Source of the DNA: an uncultured Erysipelotrichaceae bacterium
GTDB taxonomy: Bacteria; Bacillota_I; Bacilli_A; RF39; UBA660
Assembly: GCA_902789225.1 (NCBI GenBank)
Contig: CADANC010000010.1
Span: 1 to 38,134, forward strand
DNA length: 38,134 nt
Direction: 5' to 3'
Shown: positions 1 to 38,134 of the stretch, piece by piece
Numbering within the stretch: the first letter of the stretch is position 1
Layout: every line of letters starts with the position of its first letter
The notes under the pieces: generated by a model
The model's input: only the letters and a program-made list of their open reading frames with translations
Told to the model about the DNA's origin: nothing
Databases searched by the model: none
Made by a program: the position numbers and the translations under genes

Positions 1-24
1 ACAACTGCTGGATCATCACATGAA
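1..24 (+). repeat. 24-bp direct repeat of the window ends, left copy
   Basis: The first 24 bases (encoding TTAGSSHE) are identical to 38111-38134. The reading frame is the same in both copies. Confidence 0.95.
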
Positions 25-858
25 ATTACAGGACTATTAGGAGCAGGAAAGACTTATACATTACATGAAGTAAAACCTCCTACAGGATATGTAACAGCAC
101 AGGATCAAGTATTTACAGTTAATGGTGATACAACAAATCTTAACATAGAAATGGTTGATGAACCAAATGTAGTAAGTTTAGTAAAGTTAGATTCAAAATC
201 TAAAGAGCCACTTGCAGGTGCATTATTACAAGTACTAGATAAAAATAAAAATGTAGTATATGAATTCACATCTACTGAAGAAAGAATTATATTAACAGGA
301 GTTTTAATAACAGGAGAAACATATTATTTACATGAAGAAGGTGCTCCAAATTTATATCAAAGAACTGAAGATGTAGAGTTTACTGTTGGAGATACTACTA
401 AAGAATTAGATGTAAAAATAGCAGATGATAAGACATTATTAAGTATTGAAAAAACAGATGAAAAAGGAAATATAATATCAGGAGCATTATTACAAATAAT
501 AGATTCAAAAGGAAATGTAATAAAAGAATTCACATCAAGTGAAAAAGCAGAAGAACTATATGGAGTATTAAATGAAATGGAAATCTATACATTACATGAA
601 GAAAAAGTACCAGAAGGATACTTAAAAGCAGAAGATATTAAATTCAAAATAGATGAGCATGGTAAAGTGAACATCTTTGAAGGTAATGAAGCAAAAGTAT
701 TAGAAGAAAATATAATAAAAATGGTTGATAAAAAGCCAAGCAATAATATAATAATAAATCCAGAAACATCAAAAAAAGGTATATTCATAGTAATAATAAT
801 CCTAGTAATAGTATTACCAATAATAAAAATTGTTAGTAAAAAAATAAATACAATATAA
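1..858 (+). CDS. SpaA/CnaB-repeat surface protein, C-terminal part with membrane anchor (5' partial)
   Basis: The frame is open from base 1, so the ATG at 151 is internal and not the start. The translation is two and a half prealbumin-like (SpaA/CnaB) repeats, then a C-terminal anchor. Each repeat has an early Lys in a KxD-type strand, a Glu in the LHE...P.GY turn and an Asp near the last strand; these are the positions that form Lys-Asn/Asp isopeptide bonds in this fold. The tail has NPETS, a possible sortase motif of the NPxT type, then about 20 hydrophobic residues and a basic end (KIVSKK). The protein is probably displayed on the cell surface and wall-linked. The first 24 bases equal the last 24 of the window and the frame joins the adhesin that begins at 32586, so this may be its C-terminus. 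A separate upstream paralogue is the alternative. No sortase gene is in the window. Confidence 0.85.
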   Translation, partial: TTAGSSHEITGLLGAGKTYTLHEVKPPTGYVTAQDQVFTVNGDTTNLNIEMVDEPNVVSLVKLDSKSKEPLAGALLQVLDKNKNVVYEFTSTEERIILTGVLITGETYYLHEEGAPNLYQRTEDVEFTVGDTTKELDVKIADDKTLLSIEKTDEKGNIISGALLQIIDSKGNVIKEFTSSEKAEELYGVLNEMEIYTLHEEKVPEGYLKAEDIKFKIDEHGKVNIFEGNEAKVLEENIIKMVDKKPSNNIIINPETSKKGIFIVIIILVIVLPIIKIVSKKINTI

Positions 859-875
859 AAAGTAGTTTATTATAA

Positions 876-908
876 AATAACATCTCAAGAAAGTGAGGTG
901 TTATTTTT
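876..908 (+). terminator. Rho-independent terminator after the SpaA-repeat gene; also hides an RBS
   Basis: A 12-bp stem (876-887 with 894-905, one G-T wobble) has a 6-base loop and a T-rich 3' side. It lies 17 bases after the stop at 858. The right arm contains GAGGTG (895-900), the apparent ribosome binding site of the transposase-like start at 909, so the hairpin could also block translation from read-through RNA. Confidence 0.75.
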
Positions 909-938
909 ATGGGTAAACATTATTCGGAAGAATTCAAG

Positions 939-950
939 AATCGACTTTTT
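939..950 (+). repeat. 12-bp direct repeat flanking the Bro-N gene, left copy
   Basis: AATCGACTTTTT is repeated exactly at 1889-1900, on the other side of the Bro-N gene. The right copy is an arm of the terminator. Confidence 0.6.
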
Positions 951-953
951 CTT

Positions 954-983
954 TTGAAATTTTATAAAAAAACATATTGTAAT
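954..983 (+). promoter_or_regulatory. Promoter of the Bro-N gene
   Basis: A -35 of TTGAAA (954-959) and a -10 of TGTAAT (978-983) are separated by 18 bases, each one mismatch from consensus. The expected transcription start near 990 falls inside the LexA-like palindrome at 985-998. Confidence 0.5.
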
Positions 984-1890: not shown

Positions 1891-1900
1891 TCGACTTTTT
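1877..1900. terminator. Bidirectional terminator between convergent genes
   Basis: A perfect 10-bp stem (1877-1886 with 1891-1900) encloses GTAA, has A-runs on the left and T-runs on the right, and so works in both directions. The stop codon of the Bro-N gene lies in the loop and the stop of the PASTA gene lies in the right arm. Confidence 0.85.
1889..1900 (+). repeat. 12-bp direct repeat flanking the Bro-N gene, right copy
   Basis: AATCGACTTTTT, identical to 939-950, lying in the right arm of the bidirectional terminator. Confidence 0.6.
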
Positions 1901-3770
1901 ATTTAGCAATCGTAATTGTATAAGTTTTACCAGTACATGTTTCTAATACATCACCTGGCTTAATACCTGAAATAAAGCTTCCTGGAGTAGCACCACTAGT
2001 AGAATCTCCAATAATCTTTATAGTTACATTATCAAATTGACTTCTATTAAAATAACTACTTAATTGACTATATACAGAATTATAACTTTCAGGATTAGCA
2101 AATATATTAGCTAATTCTCCACCAACTGTAACTGTACCAGGAGTACATGTAGCAGTTGGAGTAGTAGGATTAGTAGTAGAAGAATTATTATTACTATTAT
2201 TATTATTTCCACTATTATTGTTATTATTACCAGCATTATTATTTCTAGGTTCAGTCTTAGCTTTACCTGAACTTACTACAATAGTAACTGTAGTATTAGT
2301 ATTAATTTCACTACCAGCTCTAATACTTTGACTAATAACAACATCTTCATCAACACTATCACTTGATCTATAAGTAATATTATATTTAATACCAGCATTC
2401 TTTAATTCTTTAGTAGCTTTATTTTTAGTCATATTAGTAACATCAATCATTTTTATCTTTTTACCAAGAGAAACAGTTACAGTAATAATATCTCCATTTT
2501 TAATAGTGTCACCACTCTTTACTGAATAACTTATTACTTGTCCAGCATCAACACTATCACTAAATTCATTTTCTACAACATATTCAATATCATATTTAGA
2601 TGCCCATGAATAAAAATCATTTATATTATCAAATTTTTCCATCTTTAATTTACCTAAAGATACATATATTGTAACAGTATCACCTGATACTAAAACATCA
2701 TTTTTATTCTTATCGGCTTTAATAATATGATTTTTATCTATAGAATCATCATATTGATCTTCTATCTTTATCTTTAATCTATTTGAAACTATCCATTTAG
2801 TTACTTCATTAATAGTCTTATTTTTAACATCAATCATTTTAATTTCTTTTCCACGAGAAATTGTTACTTTAATTGGATCACTATTAATCTTAATCTTAGT
2901 ACCAGCATCAACTGACATCTTCATAACTGTATCTTTATCATATTTAGAAGAAGTTCCTTCATCAAATTCATAATTAATATGATTTTGTTTTAAATAAAAT
3001 ATTGTTCTAAACTTACTCATTCCAACTAAGTCTCTTAAATTAACTTCATCATAACTTAATTCTAATCCATAAGAGAATGTTAATTTTAAAGGATCACTTC
3101 TCTTAATAGTTCCTTTAGTACTTTGTTCTATAACAGTATTTTCTTTTTCATCACTTTGTACAAATTCTACTGAAACATTTCCTAAATAGTTTTCTTCTAC
3201 AAAATTAATTACTTGTTCATCAGTCCAACCAGACATATCAGGAATAACAACTAATTTATCAGGATTAGCTCCATCACTAATAGATATTTTTACTTTTTTA
3301 ACTTCTTCAATAGGAGTATTATTATCTATATCTTGACTAATAACAAAATTAACAGGAACTATATCACTATATTCATATATATAATCAAGTTCTACATTGT
3401 TTTTAGTAGACCAATCAATTACTTTATCTATTTTCTTACCACTAAGATTAATAAGCTTTTCATTAGAAACATTATTAATATTTTTATTAATAAAATTGTA
3501 CCCATAAAAACCTATTAATAATAAAGAACTAAGTACAATAATTCCACTTTTCTTAATATTACTTCTAAATCCAATAATAACAAAAGTAATAGTAAATAAT
3601 ACTAATATAAAATTATTAATAAAATTATTTATATTATTATCTATATTCATAATAAAATAAAATAAACCAATAAATAGAGTAATAACTAATAATATATTTA
3701 AAAATATACTATTTTTATTTTTCTTCTTTTTGATTATTTTATCTAAATCCTTATCTATATCTTTAGACAT
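1899..3770 (-). CDS. PASTA-domain membrane protein without a kinase domain
   Basis: This 623-residue protein has a short Lys-rich cytosolic start (1-19), three hydrophobic segments (about 20-43, 47-68, 76-94), then about six tandem PASTA-like modules (about 100-505). Each module carries a VISQ..xxG..I..xDxI.V.VS.G pattern. An Asn-rich linker (about 508-532) leads to a C-terminal domain with two cysteines (about 545-623). PASTA domains bind peptidoglycan stem peptides or muropeptides and are usually the outer part of PknB/StkP kinases or of PBPs. Here there is no kinase or transpeptidase, so a wall-sensing or structural role is inferred. AGGATG precedes the ATG. The gene is convergent with the Bro-N gene and shares its terminator. 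I do not recognise the C-terminal domain. Confidence 0.85.
   Translation of the reverse strand: MSKDIDKDLDKIIKKKKNKNSIFLNILLVITLFIGLFYFIMNIDNNINNFINNFILVLFTITFVIIGFRSNIKKSGIIVLSSLLLIGFYGYNFINKNINNVSNEKLINLSGKKIDKVIDWSTKNNVELDYIYEYSDIVPVNFVISQDIDNNTPIEEVKKVKISISDGANPDKLVVIPDMSGWTDEQVINFVEENYLGNVSVEFVQSDEKENTVIEQSTKGTIKRSDPLKLTFSYGLELSYDEVNLRDLVGMSKFRTIFYLKQNHINYEFDEGTSSKYDKDTVMKMSVDAGTKIKINSDPIKVTISRGKEIKMIDVKNKTINEVTKWIVSNRLKIKIEDQYDDSIDKNHIIKADKNKNDVLVSGDTVTIYVSLGKLKMEKFDNINDFYSWASKYDIEYVVENEFSDSVDAGQVISYSVKSGDTIKNGDIITVTVSLGKKIKMIDVTNMTKNKATKELKNAGIKYNITYRSSDSVDEDVVISQSIRAGSEINTNTTVTIVVSSGKAKTEPRNNNAGNNNNNSGNNNNSNNNSSTTNPTTPTATCTPGTVTVGGELANIFANPESYNSVYSQLSSYFNRSQFDNVTIKIIGDSTSGATPGSFISGIKPGDVLETCTGKTYTITIAK
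2170..2250. repeat. Trinucleotide repeat encoding the Asn-rich linker
   Basis: Runs of TTA/TTG on the plus strand (Asn codons on the minus strand), interrupted by Ser and Gly codons, link the PASTA modules to the C-terminal domain. Such triplet tracts can change length by slippage without shifting the frame. Confidence 0.7.
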
Positions 3771-3883
3771 ATTACCACATCCTATAATATAATTATAATA
3801 TATTGAAAAAACCTAGTAAAATTATTGATGTATACATATTGTAAAGAAATGTCTAAATAAAATAAGTATGATAAAATATATTG

Positions 3884-31484: not shown

Positions 31485-32402
31485 ATGAAGAAATGTAAGA
31501 TTATAATGAATCCTCAAAGTGGTAAAAAGAAAAAAGTTAATTATCATTCTCTTTATGACGTATTAAGAAAATATGGTTATGATGGAGAAATAATCTTTAC
31601 TAAAGGAGCTAAAGATGCTACTAAAATAGTTGAAGAACTACCTAATGATGTAGACTTAGTTATTTCTTGTGGTGGAGATGGAACGCTTAATGAAGTTGTA
31701 ACAGGAGACATGAGACGTAAACATAAATTAACTCTAGCAAACCTTCCACTAGGAACAGTAAATGATGTAGGAAACATGTATGGTCTAAATAAAAGTATTT
31801 TAGAAAATCTAGAATTGTTATTAAGTGGAAAACCTAAAAAAATAGATGTTTGCTATATTAATGATTCTTCATTTGTATATGTTGCTTGTCTTGGAGACTA
31901 TATTGATATGGCATATTCTACACCTCGTGAACTAAAAGCAAAATATGGAAAAATGGGATATGTATTATATGGAGTAAAGCAATTTTTAACAAAAAAAGTA
32001 CATCATTATAGAGTTAGATATACTGTAAATGGAAAAACTTATGAAGATGATTATTCCTTCTTCTTTATAACAAATTCATCACGTATAGCAGGATTTAATG
32101 ATGTTTACTATGATGTTAAACTAGACGATGGAATGTTTGAAGTAGCATTTGCTAAAATAAAAACAAAAAAAGATATGTTTACTACGCTTATTCAACTAGG
32201 AACAAAAGATATAAAAGATGTAAATGAAGTAACATATTATAGAACAAATGAAATAAAAATAGAATTCTTAGATCCACCTAAATCATCATGGTGTATTGAT
32301 GGAGAAGAATATAAATATCAAGGAACTACATTTGACTTAAAAGTAGTACCAGGACCTAAAATGTTATTACCAAAAGATAATGTAAAAATACTATTTGATT
32401 AA
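31485..32402 (+). CDS. Diacylglycerol kinase/YegS-family lipid kinase
   Basis: The 305-residue protein begins KCKIIMNPQSGKKKK and has SCGGDGTLNEVV (GGDGTLNE at 63-70) and LPLGTVNDVGNMYGL, the nucleotide-binding motifs of the DagK/YegS/LCB5 family. SWCIDGEEYKYQGTTFDLKVVPG is the usual C-terminal part. DgkB-type enzymes phosphorylate diacylglycerol, which LTA synthase releases when it uses phosphatidylglycerol, so this would recycle the by-product of the phosphoglycerol transferase at 5969. That functional link is from known biology, not position. AAAGGAGG gives a strong RBS. It has its own promoter and terminator. Confidence 0.9.
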   Translation: MKKCKIIMNPQSGKKKKVNYHSLYDVLRKYGYDGEIIFTKGAKDATKIVEELPNDVDLVISCGGDGTLNEVVTGDMRRKHKLTLANLPLGTVNDVGNMYGLNKSILENLELLLSGKPKKIDVCYINDSSFVYVACLGDYIDMAYSTPRELKAKYGKMGYVLYGVKQFLTKKVHHYRVRYTVNGKTYEDDYSFFFITNSSRIAGFNDVYYDVKLDDGMFEVAFAKIKTKKDMFTTLIQLGTKDIKDVNEVTYYRTNEIKIEFLDPPKSSWCIDGEEYKYQGTTFDLKVVPGPKMLLPKDNVKILFD

Positions 32403-32585: not shown

Positions 32586-35500
32586 ATGTTGAAATCAATA
32601 AGAAAGATATTTAAGAATAATAAAAGAAAAAATACCATCTTAGTTTTAACAGTCTTTATATTATGCCTATTAATGGTAGGTTTTGGCATTTCAAAAATCT
32701 TTAAAAATAATAATGTCAATGTAATAAAAAATGCAGATAAAAAAGAGGCAGTACAAGGTAGTGGAAGTCTATCTGGTTGGAGTCTCTTCTTTGACATGTA
32801 TACAAATAATGAAGGAGAAAGTGTTGTTGATAGAACTAATTCCATTGATACTCTTGATTATGAGTTTCCTACAACAGATGGAACAAAATTAATAACTCAT
32901 CAAGTATCATATACATATATTGGTAGTCAATCATATCCAGCACACTCACTACAAATAGTAGTCCCTGTATTTAAGACAGGAACAGACTCTGATTCAGAAC
33001 TATACACAGTACAAAGAGTAGTAAATTCAGGTGAATGGTCATATACAGAACAAACTATCGAAGGAAAACCATATTTAGTTTTTACTAACAATAATGATAT
33101 TGCTGTAGCTGAAGCAGGTGAACACTTACAAGGATCTTTCCAAATAGCATATCTTGTAGAAGGAAAAGATGTTTACGTAAGATATAATGAATCAACTAAT
33201 TCTGAAGAACCTTTAAATAAAACTTTTGATGCAAAATTTATTAATACTTCAGACAATGAAACAATAAACTCAGACAATAAAACAGTTAAATTGAATATAG
33301 GAAAATCAGATTACAATTTAACAAAAACAGCAAGTAAATTAAGTTCACTAGACGGAATACCATCAGGTGATTATACTTGGGTAAAATATACAGTAACAGC
33401 TAGACGTCCAGATGGATTAAGAACAACAATTCTTGACCCTGCTGGAAATCTTATTAGAGAAGATTTACCTAGTTCTAATTGTAAAATATTAGATAAAGAC
33501 TTAAATGAAATATCTATTAGTGAAGATAATCATTATTGGATAGACGGATATACTTCATATGATACAGATGAACAAGCAACAATAAAATGGGAATTATATA
33601 TAGGATACCCAGTAGATGAATTTGATGGCGAAGAAATAACAAATACAGCATACTTTTATGGACAATATACTGATGCTCAAGCTGCTTACAATAAAGACAG
33701 CCAAACACATGAAATTGAATATATAAAAGATGCTAGTGTAACAATAAATGAAAGTGATTTTAAATTTGAATATAGTGGAAGACTATATGGTATTCAAAAG
33801 AATCAAGACTCTAAATGGCAAAATTGGACATCTAAGTTTTTATCTACTGATAAAATAGCTGACACATATGATTCAGTAACATATTATCTTTCACCTGTAG
33901 CTAGATATACTGGAACAGCTTTGACTGTTAGAGTAGGTGACGATAGACAATACTTAGTAGATACAAATGGAGTAGATAATAATAATGATATAACTGGAAA
34001 TCTTGTTGGACAAATAAAACAGTGGATGGATGAAGATGACTATTTCTTTACTAGAGTAACTATACCAGTATTTAAAAATGGAAATGGACAAAATATTGGT
34101 ACATATCAAGCAAAATTATTTGTAAGATATGCTAATACTGATACATTTGTAGAATATGAATCATTTGATACAAGTGCTAGTAAAACTTTCACATTTACTC
34201 AAGATCAAAAAGTTGTTAGTTGGTATTTTGAAATATATGATATGACAGAATCAATTGAAAACACATTATCTTATTATATGACAAATAACCAACATGTAGT
34301 AACAACTGTTGCATATGCTAAAAGTGATATATATGATTTATTCAATAATACATATCCCGATACAGAAGGTATTAATTATAATGGAAGAATTCATAACTTT
34401 TGCTATATAAATGTATTTGATAGTGAAGGTAATTTATTAAATGAAGTATCAAAGTCTTCTTATGCAGGAACAGGATATAATGATGGATTAGCAGATTGGG
34501 ACTGGTTAACATATGGTCACTACATGCAAAGATCGGAACATCATGCAGATTTCGTAGCAGGTAGAGAAGGCTATAGAATTACTAAAAGATTTAGTGGTTC
34601 ATCACAATATGATAATAATAAATGGACTGGTAGTTTTGAAATAAGTGCAAGACCACTAGAAAGTATGGGTTACACCATTGGAAAAATGACTAAAATAGAT
34701 ATGTATGATTTATTGCCATTAGGTATGGAGTATGATTCTAGTAAAAATGTAGAAATGCAAAATTGGCCTTACTCATATTGTTTAAGCGGAGATTTTACAA
34801 ATTGGAATCAATTCTTAAAAGATCATACAACAGTAGATATTAAATATAACTACAATAATACTAATAGAACTAAAATTCATGTATCTATAGACTTAACTGG
34901 ATATAATGTTGTTAATACATGTTCATATTTGTATGTAACAGCTACTGTCCCTGTATATGTTCCATATGATTCACTTGCCGAATATGGACTAAATTATACT
35001 AACTGGTCATTTATTAATACAGAACCAGGTGGAGGAAAATTAATATGGCCATATAGTAGAATTTATTCATTAGGCTGGAGTGACAGGTCAACTTTTATGT
35101 ATGACACAGGGGTTAAAGGAGCATCAAATTACTCAATAGCTTTAAATGATCCTGATTTGGCAGATATTAATGAAAACAATAGTACTTCCGATGATATCGT
35201 AGGTGTTAGTTATGACACAATTAAACTACTATCAGCATATTCTTCAGAAAGTACTCTTAAAAAATATGTAAGATCATATACCATAAATGATGATGATAGT
35301 ATTACTTATAATTCAGAGTGGAAAGAAGGCATTTCTCTAAAGACAAATGATCATTATGAATATAAGCTTCGTATAAGAAATTCAATGGATAATACTATAA
35401 CAAATGTAGTACTATACGATAATTTGGAATCTTATTATTACGATAGACAAAATAATCAATTTGTTTCATCTGGAGACGGATGGCAAGGAATATTCGAAGG

Positions 35501-37646
35501 AGTAGATACTGAAGCATTAGAAGAAGCAGGATATCATACAAAAGTATACTATTCAACAAATAATAAAGCAGGTAGTTTATATACAAATAATAATAGAAAC
35601 ACTATATCATCTGATTGGCATTTATTATCAAGCTTAAATGAGAGTGATTATTCTCAAGTTAAATCAATTGCGATAGAAATTCTAAATCAAAATGGAGAAC
35701 CTGCAACAATTCCAATTGATACTACAGTATATGCAGTTGTTAAAATGAAAGCACCAAGTTCTAATACTAAAGAAAAAGCATTCAACGCATATTGGACAGA
35801 ATGGAGTGCAGTAGATAATACTGGTCAAGTAATAGGTGGTCTAGATGGAATTCATAGTAACATTACTGAAGTTACTATTGAAGGATTAAATATGATGTTC
35901 CTAAAAACTGATGAAACAGGCAATGCTTTAGCAGGAGCAACTCTACAAATATTAGATTCTAATAATGTAGTAGTAGAAGAATGGACATCTACTGGAGAAG
36001 CTCATGTTGTATCAGGAAAACTAATAGCAGGAAACACATATAAATTACATGAAGTAAGTGCACCAGAAGGATATATGCCATCAGAAGATGTTACTTTTAC
36101 AGCAACAAATATGTCATCATCAGATACTCCAGTTACAATTGAAAATGCAAAAACAAAAGTAACAATCAAGAAAGTTGATGAAGATGGAAATAACTTAGCA
36201 GGAGCAACTCTACAAATTCTAGATTCTAATAATGCAGTAGTAGAGGAATGGACATCAACTACAGAAGCACATGAAATAATCGGAGAATTAGAATTAGGTG
36301 AACAATATAAATTACATGAAGTATCTGCGCCAACAGGCTATATAAAAGGCCAAGATCAAACATTTACTTTAAGTAAAACTGATAATAATAAAGTAGTAAC
36401 AATGGTTAATAAAAAGACTAGTGTTAAGATTAAAAAAGTTGATATATCTGATAATTCTGCACTTGCAGGAGCAACACTTCAAATACTTGATAATAACCAA
36501 GTAGTAGAAGAATGGACATCAACTACAGAAGCATATGAAATAAAAGGATTAACTATTGGCAAAGAATATACTTTAAAAGAGACTGCAGCACCAGCTGGTT
36601 ACTTAATAGCTGAAAATATTACATTTACAATAAATGAAGCTGGACGTATAACTACAACAGCTCCAACAACAACAGGAACAAATGGTGAAACAATAATATT
36701 ATTAAAAGATAGACAGTCAAAAGTAAAGATTAGTAAAACAGATAAAACAAGTGGAACTTTACTTGCAGGAGCAACACTACAAATATTAGATAATAACCAA
36801 GTAGTAGAAGAATGGACATCAACTACGGAACCACATGAAATAGAAGGACTAACAGCAGGTAAAGAATATACTTTAAGAGAGACTACAGCACCAGAAGGAT
36901 ATAAACTAGCAGCAGATACTAAATTTACAATAGATGAAACAGGTAGAATAACAACTACAGGAACAACTAGTAGTGATGGAACTCTTATCGTAAAAGATGA
37001 AAAAACAAAAGTTAAGATTAACAAAGTAGATGTATCATCAGGTGAAGCATTACAAGGAGCACATCTTCAAATACTTCTTGGTTCAACTATAGTAGAAGAA
37101 TGGGATTCAACAGGACAAGCACATGAAATAGAAGGACTAAAAACAGGAGTAGAATACACTATAAAAGAAACAGTAGCACCATCTGGTTATATGATTGTTA
37201 ATGATAGTAAATTTACAATAGCTACAGATGGAAAAATTACTTTTACAGGAACAGTTAGTACAGAAGGAGTACTTCTTGTAGAAGATTCAAAAACTAGTGT
37301 TAATATTATAAAAGTTGATGAAGACGGAAATGCAATACAAGGAGCAGAACTACAGATATTAAAAGGAGATGGTACTGTAGTTGAGTCTTGGACAAGTGAT
37401 GGATCTACTCATACAGTTGTAGGAAAATTAGTAGCAGGAAACACATATAAATTACACGAAGTAAGTGCACCAGATGGCTATGCTAGAGCCGCTGATGTAA
37501 CATTCACAGTTAATTCTAATTCAACAACTCAAACAGTTACAATGACAGATAAAAAGACTAAAGTAAATATTTTAAAAACAGATGCTAATGGAAATGGATT
37601 GGCAGGAGCTGTTTTAAGAATAAAAGATGGAAAACATATACCCTAG
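32586..37646 (+). CDS. Giant SpaA/CnaB-repeat adhesin, N-terminal 1,686 residues (ends at a frameshift)
   Basis: ATG 32586 follows AGGAG. The start is basic (MLKSIRKIFKNNKRKN) with one hydrophobic segment (about 19-38), acting as signal or membrane anchor. Residues about 60-1100 form a long, Thr/Ser/Tyr-rich, probably beta-stranded region that I do not recognise. From about residue 1103 SpaA/CnaB repeats follow, mostly 88-100 residues each, with KxD...LAGATLQILD...EEWTST...L(H/K/R)E..AP.GY. Six are complete and a seventh is cut: one base seems missing from the A-run at 37631-37634, giving an early TAG at 37644. The other frame then continues the repeat. Each repeat keeps the isopeptide Lys and Glu; the third residue is Asn in the first two and Asp afterwards. 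The protein is probably an elongated, protease-resistant surface stalk. Confidence 0.85.
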   Translation: MLKSIRKIFKNNKRKNTILVLTVFILCLLMVGFGISKIFKNNNVNVIKNADKKEAVQGSGSLSGWSLFFDMYTNNEGESVVDRTNSIDTLDYEFPTTDGTKLITHQVSYTYIGSQSYPAHSLQIVVPVFKTGTDSDSELYTVQRVVNSGEWSYTEQTIEGKPYLVFTNNNDIAVAEAGEHLQGSFQIAYLVEGKDVYVRYNESTNSEEPLNKTFDAKFINTSDNETINSDNKTVKLNIGKSDYNLTKTASKLSSLDGIPSGDYTWVKYTVTARRPDGLRTTILDPAGNLIREDLPSSNCKILDKDLNEISISEDNHYWIDGYTSYDTDEQATIKWELYIGYPVDEFDGEEITNTAYFYGQYTDAQAAYNKDSQTHEIEYIKDASVTINESDFKFEYSGRLYGIQKNQDSKWQNWTSKFLSTDKIADTYDSVTYYLSPVARYTGTALTVRVGDDRQYLVDTNGVDNNNDITGNLVGQIKQWMDEDDYFFTRVTIPVFKNGNGQNIGTYQAKLFVRYANTDTFVEYESFDTSASKTFTFTQDQKVVSWYFEIYDMTESIENTLSYYMTNNQHVVTTVAYAKSDIYDLFNNTYPDTEGINYNGRIHNFCYINVFDSEGNLLNEVSKSSYAGTGYNDGLADWDWLTYGHYMQRSEHHADFVAGREGYRITKRFSGSSQYDNNKWTGSFEISARPLESMGYTIGKMTKIDMYDLLPLGMEYDSSKNVEMQNWPYSYCLSGDFTNWNQFLKDHTTVDIKYNYNNTNRTKIHVSIDLTGYNVVNTCSYLYVTATVPVYVPYDSLAEYGLNYTNWSFINTEPGGGKLIWPYSRIYSLGWSDRSTFMYDTGVKGASNYSIALNDPDLADINENNSTSDDIVGVSYDTIKLLSAYSSESTLKKYVRSYTINDDDSITYNSEWKEGISLKTNDHYEYKLRIRNSMDNTITNVVLYDNLESYYYDRQNNQFVSSGDGWQGIFEGVDTEALEEAGYHTKVYYSTNNKAGSLYTNNNRNTISSDWHLLSSLNESDYSQVKSIAIEILNQNGEPATIPIDTTVYAVVKMKAPSSNTKEKAFNAYWTEWSAVDNTGQVIGGLDGIHSNITEVTIEGLNMMFLKTDETGNALAGATLQILDSNNVVVEEWTSTGEAHVVSGKLIAGNTYKLHEVSAPEGYMPSEDVTFTATNMSSSDTPVTIENAKTKVTIKKVDEDGNNLAGATLQILDSNNAVVEEWTSTTEAHEIIGELELGEQYKLHEVSAPTGYIKGQDQTFTLSKTDNNKVVTMVNKKTSVKIKKVDISDNSALAGATLQILDNNQVVEEWTSTTEAYEIKGLTIGKEYTLKETAAPAGYLIAENITFTINEAGRITTTAPTTTGTNGETIILLKDRQSKVKISKTDKTSGTLLAGATLQILDNNQVVEEWTSTTEPHEIEGLTAGKEYTLRETTAPEGYKLAADTKFTIDETGRITTTGTTSSDGTLIVKDEKTKVKINKVDVSSGEALQGAHLQILLGSTIVEEWDSTGQAHEIEGLKTGVEYTIKETVAPSGYMIVNDSKFTIATDGKITFTGTVSTEGVLLVEDSKTSVNIIKVDEDGNAIQGAELQILKGDGTVVESWTSDGSTHTVVGKLVAGNTYKLHEVSAPDGYARAADVTFTVNSNSTTQTVTMTDKKTKVNILKTDANGNGLAGAVLRIKDGKHIP

Positions 37647-38134
37647 AAGAAGTTACTCCACCAAATGGATATGCTAAAGCTGTAGCAAAAACATTTACAG
37701 TTCCAACTGATGGAAGTAATGTGAGAGTTACTATGTCTGATACAAAAACAAAATTAGAAGTAACAAAAGTAGATAGTAATAATCGAAATATTTCAGGAGT
37801 AGTATTACAAATATTAGATGCAAATAATAATTCAGTAGTACAAGAATGGACTACGACAGGTAGTGCTAAAGTGGTAGAAGGATTAACTGCAGGTCACGCG
37901 TATATATTACATGAAGCAAGTGCACCAGATGGATATACAATTGCTCCAGATATCAGATTTACAATGAATACAGATATAGGAACACAAAAAATTGTAATGA
38001 CAGATGGAGCAACAAAAGTAACAATTAATAAAGTAGATTCACAAGGAAATAAACTAGAAGGAGCAAAATTACAAATATTATCAGGATCTACAGTAATAGA
38101 TGAATGGACAACAACTGCTGGATCATCACATGAA
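37631..38134 (+). pseudogene. Continuation of the adhesin in the shifted frame (3' partial)
   Basis: Read from 37631 the sequence is open for exactly 168 codons to the last base. It begins KTYTLEEVTPPNGYAKA, the second half of the broken seventh repeat, and continues through a complete eighth repeat (KLEVTKVD...LHEASAPDGY) into the ninth (KVTINKVD...DEWTTTAGSSHE). There is no start codon or RBS at its beginning, so it is expressed only if the frameshift is a sequencing or assembly error or is bypassed. The final codons TTAGSSHE are repeated, base for base, at the start of the window. Confidence 0.8.
38111..38134 (+). repeat. 24-bp direct repeat of the window ends, right copy
   Basis: Identical to bases 1-24. 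Joining the ends at this overlap keeps the SpaA-repeat frame open into the C-terminal anchor at 858. Confidence 0.95.

Follow-up and report, generated by a model that had tools for sequence, protein, structure and literature searches.

Terminal identity of the contig

The window examined here spans contig C10 (38,134 bases) from end to end; C10 is one of the 43 contigs that make up a 1.6-Mb draft genome. The adhesin parts and the repeat described below lie on its plus strand. The first 24 bases of the window (positions 1 to 24) are identical to the last 24 (positions 38111 to 38134), and both ends lie within adhesin coding sequence. The locus raises the question of whether such ends mark a circular molecule, the two halves of one giant adhesin gene, or a break in a chromosomal contig. 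A sequence-only reading had reported the 24-base identity together with a reading frame that continues through the join, and both observations were confirmed. Given the base composition, a terminal match of this length has a probability of ~1e-12, and chance identity of the contig ends was ruled out.

The genome was searched for the 24-base word with up to 3 mismatches allowed. It occurred exactly four times, each time as an exact copy and each time at a contig tip: at the start and the end of C10, at the start of C4, and at the start of C11 (reverse strand). Longer matches were found between contigs than within C10. The last 99 bases of the window (38036 to 38134) are exactly identical to the reversed C11 tip and correspond to the first 99 bases of a 174-base repeat, while the first 99 bases of the window (1 to 99) are exactly identical to the head of C4 and correspond to the last 99 bases of that repeat. 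The tips of C10 match C4 and C11 over more bases (99 each) than they match each other (24).

Contig tips share a fixed length

We compared 81 contig tips, leaving out the far ends of C39 to C43. Tips of C8 and C37 to C43 were excluded because tips consisting of N gave false 400-base matches (the N content was checked for C8, C37, and C38). Among the unmasked tip pairs with a common suffix of at least 15 bases, 15 of 15 shared exactly 99 bases, and no other length was seen. Further tip overlaps in the same genome, of 26 and 30 bases, could have the same 99-base rule as their origin. From the way such programs work, uniform 99-base tips point to a de Bruijn-graph assembler in which neighboring contigs overlap by 99 bases; the implied setting would be a word size of 99, or a word size of 100 with overlaps one base shorter. 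MEGAHIT and idba_ud were the assemblers in the rumen study (PMC5830445) that is the apparent source of record RUG343, the congener G001.

These lengths suggest how the terminal identity came about. Two paralogous SpaA-repeat adhesin genes on the same chromosome have 174 identical bases in common, and an assembler working with a 99-base overlap would be unable to pair the two entrances of this repeat with its two exits. Four contigs end at the repeat because the entrances and exits could not be paired, and each of them retains 99 repeat bases. With a repeat of 174 bases and tips of 99, opposite tips would overlap by 99 + 99 - 174 = 24 bases. C10 looks circular because one entrance to the repeat and one of its exits happen to fall on a single contig. 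We conclude with high confidence that short-read assembly produced the terminal identity as an artifact, that the contigs form the linear order C11 (reversed)-C10-C4, and that there are two adhesins rather than one. In this reading C10 is an ordinary chromosomal piece, and joining its two ends would be an error.

Two adhesin heads and two adhesin tails

The genome has two copies of the adhesin N-terminal region, one at C10:32586-35885 and one on C11 (48% protein identity), and two of the C-terminal region, at C10:1-858 and C4:1-852 (75% DNA identity). SpaA domains were found by Pfam in both heads and both tails. In the window, PF17802 (SpaA; curated cutoff of 23.1 bits) matched positions 32586 to 37643 with 281 bits in 6 stretches and positions 1 to 855 with 95 bits in 3 stretches. 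No Pfam family matched the large N-terminal region.

In the favored order, adhesin 1 would consist of the C11 head and window positions 1 to 858. Its part in the window, delimited by its open reading frame, Pfam SpaA matches, a motif, and synteny, carries SpaA repeats, the motif NPETS, a membrane helix, and a basic tail. Adhesin 2 would consist of window positions 32586 to 38134 and the start of C4; the part in the window, assigned from open reading frames, Pfam SpaA matches, comparison with the C11 paralogue, and synteny, comprises the N-terminal region and SpaA repeats. Both genes probably encode long surface proteins in which SpaA folds are arrayed in tandem and a helix and a basic tail form the C terminus. 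Window positions 1 to 858 encode NPETS ahead of the helix, and the other adhesin has NPQTT there; with five sortase-family matches in the genome, anchoring by a sortase through a putative NPxT-type signal is plausible. Several surface proteins of this genome (L011:5786-7285, window 1-858, and L012:1-852) have NPQTG-, NPETS-, or NPQTT-like motifs, rather than LPxTG, ahead of a terminal membrane helix. Several sortase-family genes occur in the congeners as well as in this genome.

The reading frame is continuous over the shared stretch under either pairing of heads with tails. The sequence and frame of that stretch are common to both genes, so each head can be read into either tail, and frame continuity does not discriminate between the pairings. 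This bears directly on the possibility of a 38,110-base circle, in which the window ends would be the halves of one giant adhesin and C11 would join C4 directly. Such a circle accounts for the 24-base end overlap and its continuing frame, and it is one of the two pairings that the assembly graph formally allows, but the other pairing continues the frame equally well. The sequence-only reading had further calculated a gene of 2,128 codons across the join. The arithmetic holds (5549 + 858 - 24 + 1 = 6384 = 3 x 2128), whereas the join itself is unsupported; in the favored order, this 2,128-codon frame combines parts of two genes and is chimeric.

Gene order in congeners supports a chromosomal origin of the window

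Two genes in the window served as synteny markers. On the left is a PASTA-domain gene (1899 to 3770, minus strand; Pfam PASTA), whose orthologues in G002 and G003 adjoin the C11 orthologues. On the right is a lipid-kinase-like gene (31485 to 32402; diacylglycerol kinase type by sequence), which C4 orthologues follow in G001, G002, and G003. A single contig of 108,888 bases in G002 carries the C11 orthologues, the PASTA gene, the lipid-kinase gene, and the C4 orthologues (C4:941 to C4:19190) in this order, and the order is identical on a single contig of 114,509 bases in G003. Neither G002 nor G003 has an adhesin at either junction, so these contigs show the order of the flanks and not that of the adhesin halves. 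In G001, the orthologue of C4:941 lies ~60 bases after the lipid-kinase gene (88 to 92% protein identity), and adhesin 1 and the C11 neighbors are together on contig C58. Comparison of the adhesin 2 upstream flank with G001 gave no clean empty site: there is too much divergence between the intergenic sequences. Alignment on the C4 flank was good. C11 adjoining C4 was seen in none of G001, G002, and G003.

C11-C10-C4 is thus the arrangement of the genus. We infer that the window's own species keeps the gene order of its congeners, and on that basis the true order in this species is almost certainly C11-C10-C4, in linear form. It follows from the congener order that the window ends would belong to two different genes. 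The collinearity of C11, C10, and C4 with the congeners makes it unlikely that the second gene came from contamination or from a mixture of strains.

The same comparisons weigh against the circle. The terminal copies lead also to C4 and C11, not only to each other as in a complete circle, and the flank genes of the window are embedded in the chromosome of G002 and G003, between the C11 and C4 orthologues. The C11-C4 adjacency that a circle entails occurs in no congener. Plasmid records gave no match to window positions 1 to 25000, and no viral contig contains the 24-base word. A circle would also require that the segment had been cut from the chromosome in this species, and nothing indicates that. 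We therefore regard a circular molecule as extremely improbable.

Of the alternatives offered by the sequence-only reading, a chromosomal contig broken inside a repeat gene, which that reading favored, is the one that the tip matches, the 99-base rule, and the congener order support. Its view of the window ends as halves of one giant adhesin is not supported, given the two heads (C10 and C11), the two tails (C10 and C4), and the congener order. That reading had itself named two paralogous genes, as revealed by reads, as the contrary case; two paralogous genes are what we found, through synteny rather than reads.

Near-identical repeat tails and a frame break in adhesin 2

Sequence comparison showed a tract that is nearly identical between the paralogues, from 37572 to 38134 and on through the first 99 bases of the contig. 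The identity is 94.4% over the last 504 bases, with an additional 62 identical bases, and reaches 100% over the final 99. Upstream of ~37570 the paralogues are only about 65 to 80% alike, and their identity breaks off abruptly past base 99 of the contig head. The N-terminal regions are 48% identical, and against that background the near-identical tails probably stem from a recent gene conversion or an unequal exchange; we infer that the 174-base identity arose through recent gene conversion between the repeat tails. The G001 orthologue of adhesin 1 has the same repeat unit at the corresponding place, which hints that adhesin 1 may have been the donor of the converted tract.

At window positions 37630 to 37646, 70 nt of the C11 paralogue are absent from adhesin 2, between short GGAAA repeats. 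The adhesin 2 frame is broken near 37631, and a stop codon at 37644 to 37646 ends the open reading frame. A single missing base had been proposed near 37631; the actual difference is this 70-nt gap relative to the C11 paralogue, which may be a genuine deletion, may vary among strains, or may stem from faulty assembly.

A further possibility is that homologous recombination at the direct-repeat adhesins sometimes excises the chromosomal segment in circular form, so that both pairings would exist in the population. In the favored order the two genes are in direct orientation, ~38 kb apart, with a similar stretch of roughly 600 bases that includes 174 identical ones, and the genes between them differ among congeners. 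The data contain no sign of an excised form, however; the assembly graph would be identical without one, and repeats this short seldom recombine. We consider excision highly improbable. The broader proposal, that the direct-repeat adhesins act as recombination ends that occasionally excise or rearrange the ~38-kb surface-polysaccharide segment or swap adhesin tails, is very unlikely.

Genes adjoining and between the adhesins

Next to adhesin 1, window positions 863 to 960 contain a hairpin with T's after it, together with a short reading frame beginning MGKHYSEEFKNR, which we take to resemble the start of an IS3-type transposase. The first 59 bases of this element recur at 95% identity at a contig end in G001; the element is possibly an IS remnant. 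Also adjoining adhesin 1 is a Bro-N domain gene of the phage antirepressor type (1027 to 1890); it is absent from the three congeners (G001, G002, and G003), and a second copy of its N-terminal part lies on C12.

Between the adhesins, positions 3868 to 28737 hold a polysaccharide-type locus with an O-antigen ligase-like protein, an ABC exporter pair, and glycosyltransferases. G001 has part of this locus in common; in G002 and G003 the locus is far smaller. Adhesins flanking a variable polysaccharide-type locus are ordinary for a gut Firmicute.

Implications and comparison with known systems

The analysis averts two false claims, a circular element and a chimeric 2,128-codon gene. It also provides a general test for matching contig ends, which is to ask whether the same word occurs at other contig tips of that assembly and whether shared tips have one fixed length. 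What remains is modest: an uncultured Bacilli-type gut bacterium has two SpaA-repeat adhesin paralogues around a polysaccharide locus, and their repeat tails appear to have been recently homogenized.

The contig structure agrees with repeat-induced breaks in short-read metagenome assemblies made with de Bruijn-graph assemblers. In such breaks, contigs likewise end at a common repeat with tips of fixed length, and opposite tips overlap by twice the tip length minus the repeat length; here the fixed length is borne out by 15 tip pairs. C10 does not differ from these breaks and carries both the entrance and the exit of one repeat. The encoded proteins resemble the SpaA/Cna_B-type surface proteins of Gram-positive bacteria (PF17802) in that both adhesin genes have tandem SpaA domains, and they share with them a C-terminal hydrophobic helix and a basic tail; the genome also has sortase-family genes. 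They depart from these proteins in the putative sortase signal, which is NPETS or NPQTT rather than LPxTG, and in an N-terminal region that is large and matches no Pfam family.
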